Origin: Novosphingobium sp.
Lineage (GTDB): Bacteria; Pseudomonadota; Alphaproteobacteria; Sphingomonadales; Sphingomonadaceae
DNA length: 64,000 nt
Assembly: GCF_030699305.1 (NCBI RefSeq)
Contig: NZ_JAUYNB010000013.1
Coordinates: 186,001-250,000, forward strand
Direction of reading: 5' to 3'
The notes beneath the pieces are model-generated. The model saw nothing but the letters and a program-made list of their open reading frames with translations, searched no databases and was not told where the DNA came from. A program made the position numbers and the translations under genes. Below are positions 33,218 through 63,912 of the stretch, in pieces; position 1 is the stretch's first letter, and each line of letters opens with the position of its first letter.

Positions 33218-33586
33218 TTACTTCTTCTTGCCGGCGATGGGCTTGGCCTTGCCCTTGCGGGTGCGGGCGTTCGTGTGGGTGCGCTGTCCGCGAACCGGCA
33301 GCCCCTTGCGGTGACGCAGGCCGCGATAGCAGGCCAGATCCATCAGGCGCTTGATGTTCATCGCGGTTTCACGACGCAGGTCACCTTCAACGGTGTGATC
33401 CGCATCGATGGCTTCGCGAATATGCAGCACTTCCTGGTCAGACAGATCCTGCACCCGGCGGGTGTGATCAATGCCAAGCTTGTTCGCGATCTGCTTCGCC
33501 TTGTGCGCGCCAATACCGTGAATGTAGGTGAGCGCGATGATAACGCGCTTGTTGGTGGGGATATTTACCCCGGCAATACGAGCCAC
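33218..33586 (-). CDS. rpsM: 30S ribosomal protein S13
   Basis: A 122-residue uS13 beginning [15 protein letters not shown], with the C-terminal [25 protein letters not shown] tail that reaches the tRNAs. First gene of the alpha unit; a consensus-like -35 lies about 165 bases upstream, beyond an intervening gap with no gene. Confidence 0.98.
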
Positions 33587-33728
33587 TTAGTTCTCCATGC
33601 TCCACAGGGAAAGGCGGATGCCAGACCCTATCTCAACGCTTCACTGCGATGGAACGGCAAAAAGCCCGGTTGGCGCGCACAATGGCTGACGCTTGCCGGA
33701 CTGACCCGCCTGTATCGAGTGAACCGCG

Positions 33729-33757
33729 CGCTTAGGGCGATTCGACTTCGCTGTCAA
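33729..33757 (-). promoter_or_regulatory. Candidate promoter of the rpsM-rpsK-rpoA-rplQ unit
   Basis: On the minus strand, consensus -35 TTGACA (33757-33752), a 17-base spacer and TAAGCG in the -10 place (33734-33729). It lies between the SRPBCC gene stop and the rpsM start and would let the alpha genes be read independently of secY-adk. Confidence 0.5.
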
Positions 33758-33805
33758 CGCTGGCCTGACCGGGCACAAGCAATCGGAGGGCTTCACCCGC
33801 CCTCG

Positions 33806-34399
33806 TCAGGGCAACGGCGCACGGTCCGGCGAGGCCCCGCCGCCGACCGGAGTCAACCGCGCCGCGAGGCGTTGAACCTGTTCTGCCAGCACCCGGTCCA
33901 CCAGCGGCGCGACATCCGCCAACTTCATCCGCATGTAGCCGCCGACAACATAGTTCCAGATGATCGTCGTGCCGCCGCCTTCGACCGGCTTGAACGTGAT
34001 CGTCAGTGTCGCGTGAACGGCCTCGCCCTGCAAAGGACCGAGGCCGCCGGTCATCCGCAGCACCCGGCGAACGGGATCGGCATAGACGACATGGGCATGC
34101 TCGACACTGCCCATCCGCTGCCCCGGCAGTGCATCCTTCGGCACCGGGAGCTTTTCGCAAAAGCAGCCGGTCGCCTGCGGATCGAGATAGAGATTGGACG
34201 CATCGCCGGAATAAGTATGGTCGCCTGACCACCAGCGGTTGATCGCAACCGTTTCCAGCCACGCTTCGCCCGGGCTGGCCGGAACAGTCGCCTCGTTGCG
34301 ACTGACGAAGCCATTTTCGGTCAGGCCCGACACTTCGGCATGCGCGGGCAGTGCAACTGTCGCCGCCAGCACCGCAACCGCACAACGGAACAATCGCAT
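33806..34399 (-). CDS. Exported SRPBCC-fold protein inside the ribosomal cluster
   Basis: A 197-residue protein with a signal peptide (1-21, ending PAHA) and an SRPBCC-like domain (ASPGEAWLETVAINRWW at the start, TIIWNYVVGGYM and a C-terminal helix with LVDRVLAEQVQRLAARL). Unknown ligand; exported. GGAAAGG lies seven bases before the ATG at 34399. It sits between adk and rpsM on the same strand, where most bacteria have no gene, 43 bases after adk. Confidence 0.75.
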   Translation of the reverse strand: MRLFRCAVAVLAATVALPAHAEVSGLTENGFVSRNEATVPASPGEAWLETVAINRWWSGDHTYSGDASNLYLDPQATGCFCEKLPVPKDALPGQRMGSVEHAHVVYADPVRRVLRMTGGLGPLQGEAVHATLTITFKPVEGGGTTIIWNYVVGGYMRMKLADVAPLVDRVLAEQVQRLAARLTPVGGGASPDRAPLP

Positions 34400-34442
34400 C
34401 GGCCAGCCTTTCCGCTTCAGCGCCAGCCGAACCGGCAACGCC

Positions 34443-35090
34443 TCAGCCCGCGATAACGCGTTCAATCGCCGCCGTCACGTGATCCATTTCAGCCATGCCG
34501 TTGACCCGCGTAACGATCCCGCGCGCGTCGTAGATCGGCAGTATCGGCGCAGTCTTCGCACGGTATTCGGCCATCCGGGTGCGCACGGTTGCTTCGTTGT
34601 CATCCGGGCGGCGCTTGAATTCCGTGCTGCCGCACTTGTCGCAAACGCCCAGCTGGCGGGGCTGTTCGAACGTGTCGTGATAACCCTTGCCGCAATTGGC
34701 GCAGGTAAACCGGCCGGTGATGCGCTCAACCAGCGCGTCTTCATCAACGTCCAGTTCGATCACGTGATCCAGCTTGCGGCCTCGTGAACCTAGGATCGCG
34801 TCAAGCGATTCAGCCTGCGCTGCCGTGCGCGGATAGCCATCAAAGATCGCGCCAATGCCCGGCCCCATCGCGTCCAGCTCATCGCCGATCAGCGCCGAGA
34901 CGATCTCGTCAGAGACCAGCTCGCCGCGCTCCATCACTGCCTTTGCCTGCAACCCGACCGGGGTGCCGGCCTTGACCGCCGCGCGCAGCATATCACCGGT
35001 CGACAGCTGCCGCATGCTGTGCGCTTCGACGAGCCGCTGGGCTTGCGTGCCCTTGCCCGCTCCCGGCGGTCCAAGCAGGATGATGTTCAC
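34443..35090 (-). CDS. adk: Adenylate kinase
   Basis: Interconverts ATP, ADP and AMP. P-loop GPPGAGKGTQ at 7-16; the LID domain is the long zinc-binding type, with two CxxC pairs (CANCGKG and CDKCG). Length 215 is normal for long-LID enzymes. It follows secY by 43 bases as in many bacteria. Confidence 0.98.
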   Translation of the reverse strand: MNIILLGPPGAGKGTQAQRLVEAHSMRQLSTGDMLRAAVKAGTPVGLQAKAVMERGELVSDEIVSALIGDELDAMGPGIGAIFDGYPRTAAQAESLDAILGSRGRKLDHVIELDVDEDALVERITGRFTCANCGKGYHDTFEQPRQLGVCDKCGSTEFKRRPDDNEATVRTRMAEYRAKTAPILPIYDARGIVTRVNGMAEMDHVTAAIERVIAG

Positions 35091-35133: not shown

Positions 35134-36501
35134 TCAGCGCATGCGGCCCTTGAGCTTCGCCTTCTTGATCAGATCCCCGTACTGGTGGGCCAGCAGGTGC
35201 GACTGGATCTGGGTAATCGTATCGACTGTCACGTTCACCACGATCAAGAGGCTGGTGCCGCCCAGGAACATCATGTTGATGCCGGTCTGGGCGATCCAGT
35301 ATTCCGGCACGACGCAGACAATCGTCAGGTAAATCGCGCCGATCACGGTGATGCGGGTGAGGACATAGTCGAGATAATTGGCCGTGTTCTTGCCGGGGCG
35401 AATGCCCGGAATGAACCCGCCATTACGCTTCAGGTTCTCCGAGGTTTCTTCCGGATTGAACACCACGGCAGTGTAGAAGAAGCAGAAGAAGATGATGCCC
35501 ATCGCATAGAGCAGCATATACAGCGGCTTGCCGTGTGCCAGGTACTGGTTGAGGTTGACGATGAACGAACCCATTGGCGTGTCAGGCGATACGGAATTGC
35601 CTGCGAACTGGGTGATCGTCAGCGGCAACAGCAGCAGCGAACTGGCGAAGATCGGCGGGATCACGCCCGCAGTGTTGAGCTTCAGCGGAAGATGGCTGCG
35701 ATCCGCCTGCATCATGCCCTTCTGGCTGGCACGCTTTGGATACTGGATCAGCAGCCGCCGCGTGGCGCGTTCCATGAAACAGATTATCAGGATCATCGCG
35801 ACCAGCATCAGGGTCAACAGCGCAATCGTCAGGCCGCTGATGGCGCCGGTGCGGCCGCCTTCAAACATGTTGACGATGAATGTCGGCATCTGCGCGACAA
35901 TCCCGGCCATGATGATCAACGAAATGCCGTTGCCGATCCCGCGACTGGTGATCTGTTCCCCCAGCCACAGCAGGAACATGGTGCCGCCGATCAGGCTGAT
36001 CACCGCCCCCACCTTGAACATCATGCCTGGATTGACCACCGCCTGAAGTCCGCTCGACGCGCCATACGCCTCAAGCCCGGATGCCACGAACCAGCCCTGA
36101 ATCGCCGTCAGCAGCACCGCGCCATAGCGGGTGTACTGGTTGAGCTTCTTGCGCCCGCTTTCGCCCTCCTTCTTCAGCGCAGCCAACGCCGGATGCAGCG
36201 AGGCCGCGAGTTGGACGACGATGGAGGCCGTAATATAGGGCATCACGCCCAGCGCGATCAGGCTCATCCGCTCAAGGCTGCCGCCAGAGAACGTGTTGAA
36301 CAGATCAAGAATCCCGCCGCGGGTCTGGTCGTAGAGCGTCTCCAGCACCAGCGGATTAACGCCGGGCAGCGGCACGAAGCTGAGGAAACGGAACACAACC
36401 AACGCCCCGATCGTGAACCAGATGCGGTTCTTGAGTTCGGTTGCTTTGGAAAAGTTTGCGAGACTCATGTTGCTCGCAATGTTGTCGGCGCGTGATGCCA
36501 T
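35134..36501 (-). CDS. secY: Preprotein translocase subunit SecY
   Basis: The 455-residue channel subunit of the Sec translocon, with ten membrane segments. Conserved stretches include GVNPLVLETL near the start, GIGNGISLIIMAGI in the middle and the cytoplasmic loop with KRNGGFIPGIRPGK. Start at 36501 (MASRADNIASNMSLANFSKATELKNRIWFT) is the usual long N-terminus. Confidence 0.98.
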   Translation of the reverse strand: MASRADNIASNMSLANFSKATELKNRIWFTIGALVVFRFLSFVPLPGVNPLVLETLYDQTRGGILDLFNTFSGGSLERMSLIALGVMPYITASIVVQLAASLHPALAALKKEGESGRKKLNQYTRYGAVLLTAIQGWFVASGLEAYGASSGLQAVVNPGMMFKVGAVISLIGGTMFLLWLGEQITSRGIGNGISLIIMAGIVAQMPTFIVNMFEGGRTGAISGLTIALLTLMLVAMILIICFMERATRRLLIQYPKRASQKGMMQADRSHLPLKLNTAGVIPPIFASSLLLLPLTITQFAGNSVSPDTPMGSFIVNLNQYLAHGKPLYMLLYAMGIIFFCFFYTAVVFNPEETSENLKRNGGFIPGIRPGKNTANYLDYVLTRITVIGAIYLTIVCVVPEYWIAQTGINMMFLGGTSLLIVVNVTVDTITQIQSHLLAHQYGDLIKKAKLKGRMR

Positions 36502-36653: not shown

Positions 36654-37181
36654 TTACTTCGCTGCCTTGTTGGCTTCGCGGCGGGCCGTCTTCTTTTCAT
36701 GCTCGCTGGGCTGGGCAGCAGGCAGTTCGACCGAACCACCAGCGGCTTCAACCGCGGCGCGGGCACCGGCGGAAACGCCGTCGACAGCAAACTTTGCCTT
36801 GGCCGAGAAATCGCCCTTGCCCAGCAGCCGGACGCCGTCCTTGCCGCCGCGCGCGAGGCCAGCGGCCTTCAGCGCAGCGTGGTCGATCACGGCGTTGACG
36901 TCGAGCTTGCCCGAGTCGATCGCCTTCTGGATCAGGCCCAGGTTGGCTTCAGCGAAGTCCTTGGCGAAGATGTTGTTGAAGCCGCGCTTCGGAATCCGCA
37001 TGTGCAGCGGCATCTGGCCGCCTTCGAAGCCGTTGACCGATACGCCCGAACGCGCCTTGGCACCCTTCTGGCCGCGGCCAGCAGTCTTGCCCTTGCCCGA
37101 ACCGATACCACGGCCGACGCGCATCCGGCCCTTGCGGGCACCGGCATTGTCACGGAGTTCATTGAGTTTCATAAATTGCAC
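36654..37181 (-). CDS. rplO: 50S ribosomal protein L15
   Basis: A 175-residue uL15, about 30 residues longer than E. coli L15 because of an acidic/basic C-terminal tail ([25 protein letters not shown]). The N-terminus has the usual [35 protein letters not shown] pattern. A promoter-like site precedes it, after the acyltransferase pair. Confidence 0.97.
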
Positions 37182-37216
37182 TCGCTTTCGCTTTAGTCGC
37201 GCTAATGGAAGCGGCG

Positions 37217-37245
37217 CCCTTAAGCGAAGGCCGGGGCGATGTCAC
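37217..37245 (-). promoter_or_regulatory. Candidate promoter of rplO-secY-adk
   Basis: Minus strand: GTGACA (37245-37240), 17-base spacer, TAAGGG (37222-37217), 36 bases before the rplO ATG. Same style as the rpsM site. Confidence 0.45.
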
Positions 37246-37263: not shown

Positions 37264-38364
37264 TCAGCCAGCCGCCCCCGCCCGGGCCGCAATCCGGCGG
37301 CGCAGCGCCTCGATCCGAACGTCGACGAACCGCACCAGAACCCAGGCCAGCGCGCAGGTAACAAGCAACGTGGCGATGGTCAGCAGCGACGGACTGGCTT
37401 TCAGCAGTGGCAGCGCGCCCAGCATCGCGAACACCAGCAAATGCCCCAGATAGACCGGAAACGACAGCTCACCGATTGCGCGATCGACGGCCGAACGCTG
37501 GCTCCAGCCATGAATGGCCGGCAAGGCGAGCGCGACCAGCGTCAGCAGGGCAAGGCGCGGCGGGGAGAAAAACTGGTCGTGCGGCCAGTCTCCGCTCCAC
37601 CAGGGCCAGGTCAGTATGGCCACCGGAACCGCCAGCGCCAGCGCCTTGGCGGCATTGCCCACCCATAGCGCGCGATCTGAGGCCCACACCCGGTAAGCGA
37701 GCACCCCGGCAAGAAACAACGCCAGTTCGAACGGGAAGAATCGATAGCTCCACGGATCATCGACCAGCCCACCCCCGGCCGCCAGCGCGCGCGCGGCCAG
37801 CGACAGCGCCAGCACGACCACGATCGCCTTGACCGAGCGGCGCGCAATGAACGGAGCGACGGCGTAAAACATCAGCTCCAGGCTGAGCGACCAGGCCATC
37901 GGGATCATCATGTAGTTGATGACCTCGCCCGCACCACTCGCCTTGAACGTGGCGGTCCACGCCAGTTGGCCGTCCTCGACCGTCAGCCACAGCGGAAGTT
38001 CCTGCCCGATTGCAGTGAAGTTCAGCGCCCCCAACCCGATTCGCTCGCCCAGCCCGATCCGATCATCGGCATAGATCCCCAGCGGCGTGGTTCCGCCCTG
38101 CACCTCGACCAGCGCGAACACAGCCAGGTGCAGCGCCAGGAACAGGTAATACATCGCAAAAATGCGGATCGCGCGGTTGGTGTAGAATGCGCGGTTCAGC
38201 GCCGGGCGGTCATAGCGCTCGTTCAGAACCAGCCCCATGTAGAAGCCGGAAATGATGAAAAAGCACTGCACCGCAACCGCGCCGCCCGTCATGGCATAGC
38301 CGCCCAGCCCGCCAGTGTGCTCGAACAGCACGATCGCAGCCAGCAACAGGCGCAGCAGCCCCAT
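37264..38364 (-). CDS. Acyltransferase 3 family membrane protein (second of pair)
   Basis: A 366-residue integral membrane acyltransferase with about ten hydrophobic segments; the N-terminal RLLLAAIVLFEHTGGLGG holds the conserved catalytic-type histidine, and FFIISGFYMGL is the family motif. Members O-acylate cell-surface sugars. Its ATG overlaps the stop of the upstream acyltransferase gene (ATGA), so they are coupled. Both lie between rpmD and rplO. Confidence 0.85.
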   Translation of the reverse strand: MGLLRLLLAAIVLFEHTGGLGGYAMTGGAVAVQCFFIISGFYMGLVLNERYDRPALNRAFYTNRAIRIFAMYYLFLALHLAVFALVEVQGGTTPLGIYADDRIGLGERIGLGALNFTAIGQELPLWLTVEDGQLAWTATFKASGAGEVINYMMIPMAWSLSLELMFYAVAPFIARRSVKAIVVVLALSLAARALAAGGGLVDDPWSYRFFPFELALFLAGVLAYRVWASDRALWVGNAAKALALAVPVAILTWPWWSGDWPHDQFFSPPRLALLTLVALALPAIHGWSQRSAVDRAIGELSFPVYLGHLLVFAMLGALPLLKASPSLLTIATLLVTCALAWVLVRFVDVRIEALRRRIAARAGAAG

Positions 38365-39494
38365 CAGATCTGGCCAGCTTCAGCATGGCGCCGCAGGCGT
38401 TCCCGCAGCGGTCGCTCGAACCAGATGAAGCTCAGCCGCGCGGCCAGGATCACGGCGCCAAGCCACGCTGCCAGCACCCAGCCTTGCGCGGTGAACTCGG
38501 CGGGATTGCCGTGCGGCAGGATCACCAGCATCAATGCCAGCTGCATCGGCACGTGCCACAGGTAGATACCATAGGTGCAATCCCCCAGCCAGCTGCTGGC
38601 CCGGCGCAAACCGCGCGGCGCGGCATTTTCAACCGCAGCCAGCATCAGCAAGGCCGCTCCCGTCAGCGCTGGGATGGCAACCACCTCGCGGGCCAGTCCG
38701 CTTCCCTCACGCAGCGCCGCCAGTCCGGCCAGTGTCAGTACAGCGCAGATCAGGCTCCGTCCCGCGCCGTTGCGCAGATGCAGCCACTCATGCAGCCGGA
38801 ACAGGGCGGTCCCGACGAAAAAATAAAATGCGCAATTGGGAATACGCGATACCGACGAGAACAGGTTGCCCAGCAGGCACAGCGCGATCACCGCGATCAG
38901 CCCGCCTGCACCAAACTTGCGCAGCGGCTCGCGCAACACCCAGAACAGGGCGTAAACCACCACTTCCACCGATACCGACCAGATCGGACCGTTGAACGAC
39001 TGCCCGGTTCCAACCAGCCAATCCGACGCAAAGAACAATTGCAGGAAGAAATGCCACCAGTCGTAATTGTCGTAGAGCAGCGTGTGCCCCACCTGTTGCA
39101 GGGCGATGAACTGCAACCCCGCCACCACCAGCAACGTCAGGAAGTGCAGCGGATAGAGCCGGGCAAACCGGTTCACCACGAATTCCCGCGTCGTTGCCGG
39201 TCGATCGAGATAGACCGCTGCAAACACAAATCCGGAAATCATCCAGAACAATTGCACGGCGTAAAAGCCCCAATCGTACAGCAGACCGAACATGGCCCGC
39301 GCCGGCTGGTAATCGAGATACTGGAAATAGCGCTCATGATCGGTGCCGATCATCGCAAAATGCATGTAGTGATAGAACAGCACGGCCACAGCGGCCAATC
39401 CGCGCAGCCCGTCGATCAAGGTAAGCCTCGGCATGCTCAACCGCACCGGAGCAGGTGGCCCAGGCACCGTGACCTGATCGGACGTAACATTCAC
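38364..39494 (-). CDS. Acyltransferase 3 family membrane protein (first of pair)
   Basis: A 376-residue acyltransferase 3 protein: LIDGLRGLAAVAVLFYHYMHF near the start with the conserved RGLAA and His, then QLFWMISGFVFA and about ten hydrophobic segments. It differs in sequence from the neighbour, so they are not recent duplicates. It begins 68 bases after the terminator that ends the ribosomal transcript, so it needs its own promoter, not identified. Confidence 0.88.
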   Translation of the reverse strand: MNVTSDQVTVPGPPAPVRLSMPRLTLIDGLRGLAAVAVLFYHYMHFAMIGTDHERYFQYLDYQPARAMFGLLYDWGFYAVQLFWMISGFVFAAVYLDRPATTREFVVNRFARLYPLHFLTLLVVAGLQFIALQQVGHTLLYDNYDWWHFFLQLFFASDWLVGTGQSFNGPIWSVSVEVVVYALFWVLREPLRKFGAGGLIAVIALCLLGNLFSSVSRIPNCAFYFFVGTALFRLHEWLHLRNGAGRSLICAVLTLAGLAALREGSGLAREVVAIPALTGAALLMLAAVENAAPRGLRRASSWLGDCTYGIYLWHVPMQLALMLVILPHGNPAEFTAQGWVLAAWLGAVILAARLSFIWFERPLRERLRRHAEAGQI

Positions 39495-39555
39495 CAGCCC
39501 GGCCCTTCGCTAAGCAGTTGCTATCCTGCCTATGTCGCGATGGTTAAGATCGGGC

Positions 39556-39591
39556 AAAGGAAAAGGGCTGCGGATCGCTCCGCAGCCCTTT
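39556..39591 (-). terminator. Rho-independent terminator after rpmD
   Basis: Perfect 12-base stem AAAGGGCTGCGG / CCGCAGCCCTTT with a 6-base loop; on the minus strand it runs into TTTTCCTTT. It ends the rpsJ-to-rpmD transcript before the acyltransferase genes. Confidence 0.85.
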
Positions 39592-39615
39592 CGTTTCCAG
39601 CTAACCGCTGAGCGT

Positions 39616-39792
39616 TCAGTCGATCACAGCAACCATATGCGGCAGCTTGGCGATTGCGCCGCGCACTTCGGCGGTGTCTTCCAACTCCACCACGCGGTTC
39701 ATCTTGCCAAGGCCCAGGCCGATGAGGATCTTCTTCTGGCTTTCCGGCCGGCGGATCGGCGAACCGATCTGCTTGATCTTGATTGTCGCCAT
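39616..39792 (-). CDS. rpmD: 50S ribosomal protein L30
   Basis: A 58-residue uL30, read directly from the sequence: [19 protein letters not shown] at the start and the conserved [17 protein letters not shown] in the middle, ending MVAVID. It starts 5 bases after the rpsE stop. Last gene before the terminator at 39591. Confidence 0.95.
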
Positions 39793-63802: not shown

Positions 63803-63912
63803 GCCCGCGCCCCTACGCCTGCCGGGTTTCGCTGTCACCCCCAATGTCATTGCCGCCGCCAGATAACGCCGATAGGCTGCGCGCAACATTCGTTCAGCCG
63901 GAGATTGCCCTT

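Follow-up and report, generated by a model that had tools for sequence, protein, structure and literature searches.

A gap between rpmD and rplO in the Sphingomonadaceae ribosomal gene cluster that appears to be filled with interchangeable accessory genes

Introduction

Ribosomal protein operons are a textbook example of frozen gene order, and in most bacteria rpmD, rplO and secY are contiguous. The window analysed here, a stretch of 64,000 nucleotides (G000:C30:186001–250000) of the 3.36-Mb draft genome of a Novosphingobium sp. (family Sphingomonadaceae), contains an S10-spc-alpha cluster in which two acyltransferase genes stand between rpmD and rplO, raising the question of how such genes come to lie within an essential operon and what keeps this joint open. 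According to the initial annotation, the break is maintained by a terminator and a new promoter, and envelope acylation is carried as a guest in a highly expressed locus. The comparison with relatives presented here indicates that the split is probably family-wide, with acylation as one interchangeable cargo.

Results

Anatomy of the locus

The cluster lies on the minus strand in the order fusA, tuf, rpsJ ... rpsE, rpmD, AT1, AT2, rplO, secY, followed on the same strand by adk, one ORF, rpsM, rpsK, rpoA and rplQ; gene names other than rpmD, rplO, AT1 and AT2 were assigned by reading the sequence. The features around the slot are the following:

39616..39792, minus strand: rpmD (L30), last gene before the slot (TIGR01308, PF00327)
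39561..39592, minus strand: terminator-like hairpin, left slot edge (fold z −4.2)
38364..39494, minus strand: AT1, stand-alone acyltransferase-3 membrane protein, 376 aa (PF01757)
37264..38364, minus strand: AT2, coupled to AT1; a stand-alone membrane protein of the acyltransferase-3 type, 366 aa (PF01757)
37217..37245, minus strand: putative rplO promoter GTGACA-N17-TAAGGG, right slot edge (pattern search; conserved in relatives)
37178..37203, minus strand: rplO leader element AGCGCGACTAAAGCGAAAGCGAGTGC, separated from the ATG by 5 nt (core conservation)
36654..37172, minus strand: rplO (L15), first gene after the slot (TIGR01071)
35134..36501, minus strand: secY, in a presumed rplO-secY-adk unit (ORF, named by reading)
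34443..35090, minus strand: adk, closing the presumed rplO-secY-adk unit (ORF, named by reading)
33729..33757, minus strand: putative rpsM promoter TTGACA-N17-TAAGCG, after a second slot, of a design like that of the rplO promoter (pattern position)

The probable start of rplO is the ATG at 37172, the listed GTG at 37181 not being kept in frame in relatives. The ACYLTRANSFERASE pair in the slot consists of AT1 and AT2, and its initial description as two coupled acyltransferase-3 (AT3) genes between rpmD and rplO was confirmed: both proteins match PF01757 (AT1, E = 2.7e-34, 119.2 bits; AT2, E = 8.4e-20, 71.5 bits; gathering score 31), and the genes, of which AT1 starts with GTG, share one base at TGATG. 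Neither protein matched an NCBIfam model, and the Pfam search found no SGNH domain in either. An R-X10-H motif is located at residue 31 in AT1 and at residue 5 in AT2, while RXXR is represented by R109/R112 in AT1 and was seen by eye in the translation of AT2; R31, H42, R109 and R112 of AT1 are invariant in an alignment of eight sequences (A3). In the accessible part of a study on AT3 proteins, R-X10-H is described as absolutely conserved in AT3 domains and RXXR as a further AT3 motif (PMC9833829). Given these motifs and no SGNH domain, acyl transfer to an envelope glycan is the best guess, and judged by sequence AT1 and AT2 are most likely two membrane acyltransferases moving acyl groups onto such a glycan. 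A structure of AT1 predicted from the single sequence was of low quality (mean pLDDT 50) and was left unused, and a search for solved relatives of the AT3 guests gave nothing useful.

The rpmD–rplO gap across the family

For the survey, rplO was matched in 51 of 59 genomes of the genus and in 114 of 118 genomes of the order, and 120 loci were fetched: 51 from the genus, 53 from other genera of the family and 16 from other families, these last drawn from 57 other-family genomes with an rplO match. rpmD was also present in 114 of the 120 loci, which together with the window gives 99 family and 16 outgroup loci. Loci in which rpmD was missing from the stretch taken were dropped (L045, L048, L051, L053, L067 and L072); among these, L053 (genome G009) has a 6348-bp gap and L067 (G037) seems disconnected, so that the number of filled loci is, if anything, low. 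Within the family the gap is bimodal, measuring 1–298 bp in 61 of the 99 loci (empty) and 642–3597 bp in 38 (filled), with filled slots in 30 of 46 genus loci and 8 of 53 loci in other genera. The view that the acyltransferases are guests held up when the junction was compared across the order: in the relatives within the family the slot is empty or otherwise filled, and the 16 other-family loci examined are all near-contiguous (−5 to 47 bp), on which ground an origin of the pair in the ancestor of the order was rejected. A second set, which partly overlaps the survey set, comprised the 80 named relatives that matched rplO best; rpmD was in reach in 75 of them, with gaps of 48–348 bp in 53 and 1121–6255 bp in 22.

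The slot changed between filled and empty at least 17 times on the best tree, some branches of which are poorly supported. Two loci with almost identical ribosomal-cluster proteins, L062 and L063, have gaps of 280 and 1104 bp, respectively; their DNA matches through rpmD plus 56 nt (97%), diverges at the hairpin and matches again (98.5%) from the −35 region, 73 nt ahead of the aligned rplO start. This pair shows that the guest sits exactly between hairpin and promoter. The sister loci L096 and L100 (SH-aLRT 97), with flanks 92% identical, carry different guests: L096 has a member of a GT-C-like family (see below), L100 a group 1 glycosyltransferase. In genome G037 (L175/L285), no rpmD was found within ~18 kb upstream of rplO, and the cluster seems disconnected at the slot.

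The sister of the window, L055 (genome G024; SH-aLRT 100), has counterparts of AT1 and AT2 arranged in the same way (77% and 79% identity), and the DNA of the two is 79% identical over the whole slot; the stretch between hairpin and AT1 is conserved as well and may be the guest's own promoter. AT1 has matches (E ≤ 1e-50) in 9 of the 59 genus genomes, of which the best three (own, G024 and G034) lie at the slot and the other six are 37–40% identical; those of G020, G045, G046 and G047 are located off-slot, by contig and coordinates, while G040 and G050 have no rplO match with which to compare positions. For AT2, matches (E ≤ 1e-30) were found in five genus genomes, four of them at the slot (own, G024, G034 and G010) and the fifth, in G037, ~134 kb away in a genome with an apparently broken rpmD–rplO link. 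When six AT3 guests were compared with AT1, that of L055 was 78% identical and the remaining five 21–47%, and in L033 relatives of AT2 and AT1 stand in reverse order, accompanied by a third AT3 gene. Joint mosaic transfer of the guest and rplO found no support, since among the loci compared L055 is the best DNA match of the window at both rplO (86.5%) and secY (88.0%). The low position of G024 in the rplO protein ranking is due to its short tail: the C-terminal tail of L15 in L055 is shortened (155 vs 169 aa from the same truncated start), while other close relatives keep it.

Cargo of the slot

From the 37 filled loci besides the window, 50 ORFs of at least 70 aa were picked mechanically, a few of them in the wrong frame (L055, L115). 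AT3 acyltransferases are present in 10 of the 38 filled loci, the window counted, with L037 included by a 61% match to AT2 and L115 by a 39% tblastn match only, its longest ORF having no Pfam match. A family of ~500-aa membrane proteins (GT-C-like) was found in 9 filled loci and a weak-ankyrin family in 11, five of which also have a GT-C-like member; AT3 or GT-C-like genes occur in 19 of 38. Further cargo includes EcKL/APH kinases, a caspase-domain protein, group 1 glycosyltransferases, methyltransferases, MCRA, a Stf0 sulfotransferase, a GDSL lipase and proteins of no known kind. One guest pair (L042:3263–5820) combines the caspase-domain protein (PF00656) with a protein of 342 aa that matches no Pfam family. 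Because relatives carry unrelated genes in the slot, acylation is not the point of the locus.

The classification of the ~500-aa family is weakly suggested by a structure model, made for a relative from the named loci aligned with three others there rather than for the nine survey guests. Sequence searches on this family gave nothing useful. Model confidence is low (mean pLDDT 53, pTM 0.54), and Foldseek returned one match with E < 0.001, the first-listed matches being GT-C enzymes (ArnT, TM 0.54); the guests may thus be GT-C glycosyltransferase-like.

Relative to the operon, 35 guest ORFs are on the same strand and 15 on the opposite one; by locus, all guests have the same strand in 24 of 37, all the opposite in 9 and mixed orientation in 4. 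No integrase or transposase Pfam families were detected in the 34 of 50 guest ORFs scanned, among which the three large clusters are all represented, and no repeats frame the guest in the window or L063, the two loci tested. These results give no support to a mobile element or integron-type cassette as carrier.

The two edges of the slot

On the left, the hairpin at 39592–39561 has a GCGA loop and runs into TTTT. The terminator-like hairpin annotated after rpmD stands, with a stem of 14 bp by folding rather than 12 bp: the 66-nt stretch has a folding energy of −32.8 kcal/mol (z −4.2), a stability that 0 of 200 shuffles reached. A generic terminator scan of the window did not list it. Under a strict rule, which asks for a hairpin followed by a U-run behind rpmD, the positives were 24 of the 46 loci in the genus and 12 of the 53 elsewhere in the family (36 of 99 in all), compared with ~0.2 expected from shuffles and 0 of 16 in the outgroup; the sister L055 fails this rule. 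Another rule gave 31 of 46, 14 of 53 and 45 of 99, respectively. Judged by its fold, the hairpin in the window likely terminates transcription. Five empty loci with gaps of 71–74 bp (L034, L035, L058, L082 and L083) have a terminator-like hairpin abutting the rplO leader and no visible promoter, so that there the hairpin must leak or rplO be served otherwise.

On the right, the promoter-like site noted before rplO, GTGACA-N17-TAAGGG at 37245–37217, proved to be conserved in relatives. The pattern GTGACA-N17-TANNGG has two matches in the window against 0.03 expected, the other being at 63810–63838 (minus strand), and in almost every genus locus that has GTGACA-N17-TAnnGG this site lies 23–28 nt upstream of the leader core, despite differing guests. 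A generic E. coli-type promoter scan found none at this site. The −10 hexamer has no final T, and the miss fits with the N. aromaticivorans promoters, more than 80% of whose sigma-70 members are without a conserved T at −7, according to the portion of that study at hand (PMC8407463). We infer from the pattern and its conservation that the rplO promoter fires. Contrary to what had been assumed, it is not new in this genome, promoter sites and leader being present in many genera of the family and also in guest-free species; of the proposed break, the hairpin and the conserved promoter thus persist as edges, and the novelty of the promoter does not.

With a score threshold of at least 14, the score having been designed on these same loci, 35 of the 38 filled loci in the family had the rplO promoter, against 21 of the 60 empty ones (98 loci, L136, which is without the leader, being left out; Fisher 8e-9, raw). 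The corresponding counts were 30 of 30 and 8 of 16 in the genus, and 5 of 8 and 13 of 44 in other genera (p = 0.11); a simpler promoter pattern gave 20 of 22 and 13 of 53 in the named loci (counts without shuffle control). A tree-aware test of the association was not significant (12 independent pairs on supported branches, median p = 0.375), the promoter going the same way as filling in 3.6 pairs and the other way in 1.0, and the link may therefore reflect shared descent.

A conserved leader before rplO

The invariant leader of rplO is the most novel part of the finding. With minor variation, rplO is preceded by AGCGCGA-N-AAAGCGAAAGCGAGTGCA. The core, AGCGAAAGCGA[G/T]TGC, is present in 98 of 99 family loci (with T in one) and in 0 of 16 outgroup loci, the family count being descriptive as the pattern was read off these loci; it also occurs in 80 of 80 named relatives, which were picked as best rplO matches. 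As an independent set, 192 alphaproteobacterial genomes were searched for the exact 15-mer, which was found once in each of the 3 family members drawn and in 0 of the 189 others. The leader occurs once in its own genome. In 82 of 98 loci 5 or 6 nt separate the core from the ATG, and G[C/T]GCG[A/T] lies 10–11 nt before the core in 88 of 98 and 24–33 nt before it in 7, several of which have, by eye, a small hairpin between both parts. Among the family loci the core is missing from L136 alone; this locus has a gap of 1 bp and diverges ahead of all other family members (on a long branch, its place unsure), a position that suggests a single origin of the split.

Rfam gave no match at 37178–37203 up to E = 1. 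Single-sequence folds of the leader differ between species, and the core varies too little for covariation to show. A strong Shine-Dalgarno site as the explanation of the leader was rejected, its strength (median −3.7 kcal/mol, 98 loci) being weaker than in the outgroup (−5.7, 16 loci), a comparison in which the window rows for rpsJ, rplC and rplO were disregarded for their wrong start positions. Mimicry of rRNA found no support in the one-contig genome G063, which has the exact 15-mer only once. Among the matches listed, literature searches gave nothing on point for an rplO leader or internal spc-operon promoter, or for rpmD–rplO gene order in sphingomonads.

Other junctions of the cluster

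The survey of other junctions covered the window and 40 further stretches, each at most 20 kb long; these 40 came mostly from the genus and were chosen for long contigs, not for gap size. Inserts of more than 500 bp were found at 4 of 28 junctions in these 41 loci, namely rpmD|rplO (25 of 40), adk|rpsM (28 of 32), tuf|rpsJ (7 of 34) and rpoA|rplQ (5 of 26); three loci with a negative fusA–tuf distance, presumed wrong tblastn matches, are outside these counts. The remaining 24 junctions had no insert >500 bp (n = 30–41 each), and from rplO to secY and secY to adk there was no insert in 41 of 41 long loci.

The window is among the 28 loci with an insert at the second slot, which here extends from adk to rpsM (33587–34442), and its ORF (33806–34465, 219 aa) had no NCBIfam match and a sub-threshold Pfam match only. 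In 29 of 32 loci the 200 nt preceding rpsM contain a site of the type [T/G]TGAC-N17-19-TA (without shuffle control), and in 15 of 32 this is exactly TTGACA-N17-TAAGCG. The rpsM leader (33554–33631, minus strand) is conserved in relatives and matches Alpha_RBS below threshold (21.9 vs 38 bits); it may be a divergent S4-type leader.

Discussion

The explanation that we favour, and regard as probable, is that the S10-spc-alpha cluster of the family would be cut into separately restarted transcription units, with a slot between terminator and promoter that is refilled with interchangeable cassettes. The first unit would be closed by rpmD, in the window with a terminator, rplO-secY-adk would restart from its own promoter with a fixed 5' leader, and rpsM would restart again. 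Given separate restarts, the stretch from the rpmD terminator to the rplO promoter would be neutral for essential expression and could be filled, emptied and refilled many times by short accessory cassettes, often of surface-glycan-modifying kinds, whose manner of entry we infer. The AT1-AT2 pair would be one such cassette, common to sister species. A stop signal, a restart signal and a fixed leader in the DNA are likely the reason that the joint is open.

The strongest competitor, to which we give somewhat less than an even chance, is neutral wear, by which any gap between units gathers passing genes and neither this slot nor the acyltransferases are special. It accommodates the second site at adk|rpsM (28/32), the smaller ones at tuf|rpsJ (7/34) and rpoA|rplQ (5/26), cargo that is mixed and on either strand (35 ORFs same, 15 opposite), and a promoter link that is not significant once corrected for descent, whereas the AT3 or GT-C-like genes in 19 of 38 filled loci may be more than random cargo. 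That the acyltransferases are instead an old resident of the genus, passed on by vertical descent with many losses, appears unlikely: the pair is common to the window and L055, and AT2 relatives lie at the slot in the own genome, G024, G034 and G010, but five of six AT3 guests are only 21–47% identical to AT1, the order in L033 is reversed with a third AT3 gene, and close relatives hold other genes or none.

We consider it quite improbable that the guest is co-expressed with the ribosome, with a leaky hairpin and read-through from rpmD driving AT1-AT2 and tying acylation to growth rate. The guests in the window do lie on the same strand close behind rpmD, and in 24 of 37 filled loci all guests have the strand of the operon; against this, the hairpin in the window is a near-ideal terminator, guests are all opposite in 9 of 37 loci and mixed in 4, and the conserved stretch after the hairpin in the window and L055 may be the guest's own promoter. 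Nor does the locus bear out any benefit to the guest from strongly expressed ribosomal genes, the hairpin standing between the ribosomal protein genes and AT1 and the rplO promoter downstream of AT2.

Within the preferred reading of restarted units around a refillable slot, a bolder and rather doubtful idea concerns the leader core AGCGAAAGCGAGTGC, which might be a new family-specific regulatory RNA, perhaps a leader for L15 or another ribosomal protein. If so, the leader would let rplO-secY-adk run independently and thereby keep the port open inside a ribosomal operon, and surface-glycan genes would be rotated through it, possibly under phage pressure.

One joint in an operon of frozen order has been reopened and refilled repeatedly across a genus, which makes testable when an essential operon tolerates foreign genes. 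A further yield is a candidate regulatory RNA, conserved in almost all of the family, and the slot is a place where the diversity of enzymes that modify the envelope can be read with ease.

Several known systems resemble parts of this locus. Like the leader RNAs of ribosomal protein genes (PMC7247131, as far as accessible), the rplO element is a conserved non-coding stretch directly before a ribosomal protein gene; unlike them, it has no Rfam match and varies too little for covariation to show, and the accessible part of that survey contains no bacterial L15 leader. AT1 and AT2 share PF01757, R-X10-H and RXXR with OafB-type AT3 proteins as described in the available sections of PMC9833829, and differ from OafB in being stand-alone, in two coupled copies and without an SGNH match. 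The replacement flexible genomic islands of PMC4033161, in the portion at hand, likewise present differing genes at one locus, typically for exposed cell structures, and are exchanged by homologous recombination with substitution peaks at their edges; the present slot differs in its size (~0.6–6 kb), in its place inside a ribosomal operon and in that, at gene level only, no sign of edge substitution was seen around the slot in the window. Another is the invasion-separation scheme, for which the available text, on Gammaproteobacteria and Bacilli, reports that a few genes enter the ribosomal cluster, mostly between operons, that one case, nrdHEF, lies inside the rpoBC operon, and that some lineages later disconnect; "promoter" and "terminator" have no occurrences in its main text as obtained. 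As in that scheme, the cluster has taken up a small insert that the ancestor was without (all 16 outgroup loci are near-contiguous, whereas 38 of the 99 loci in the family are filled). For disconnection there is one candidate, G037, in which no rpmD was found within ~18 kb upstream of rplO. Unlike the cases described there, as far as that text extends, the joint reported here lies inside the spc operon, has been refilled with varied cargo, and is bordered by a putative terminator on one side and a putative promoter on the other.
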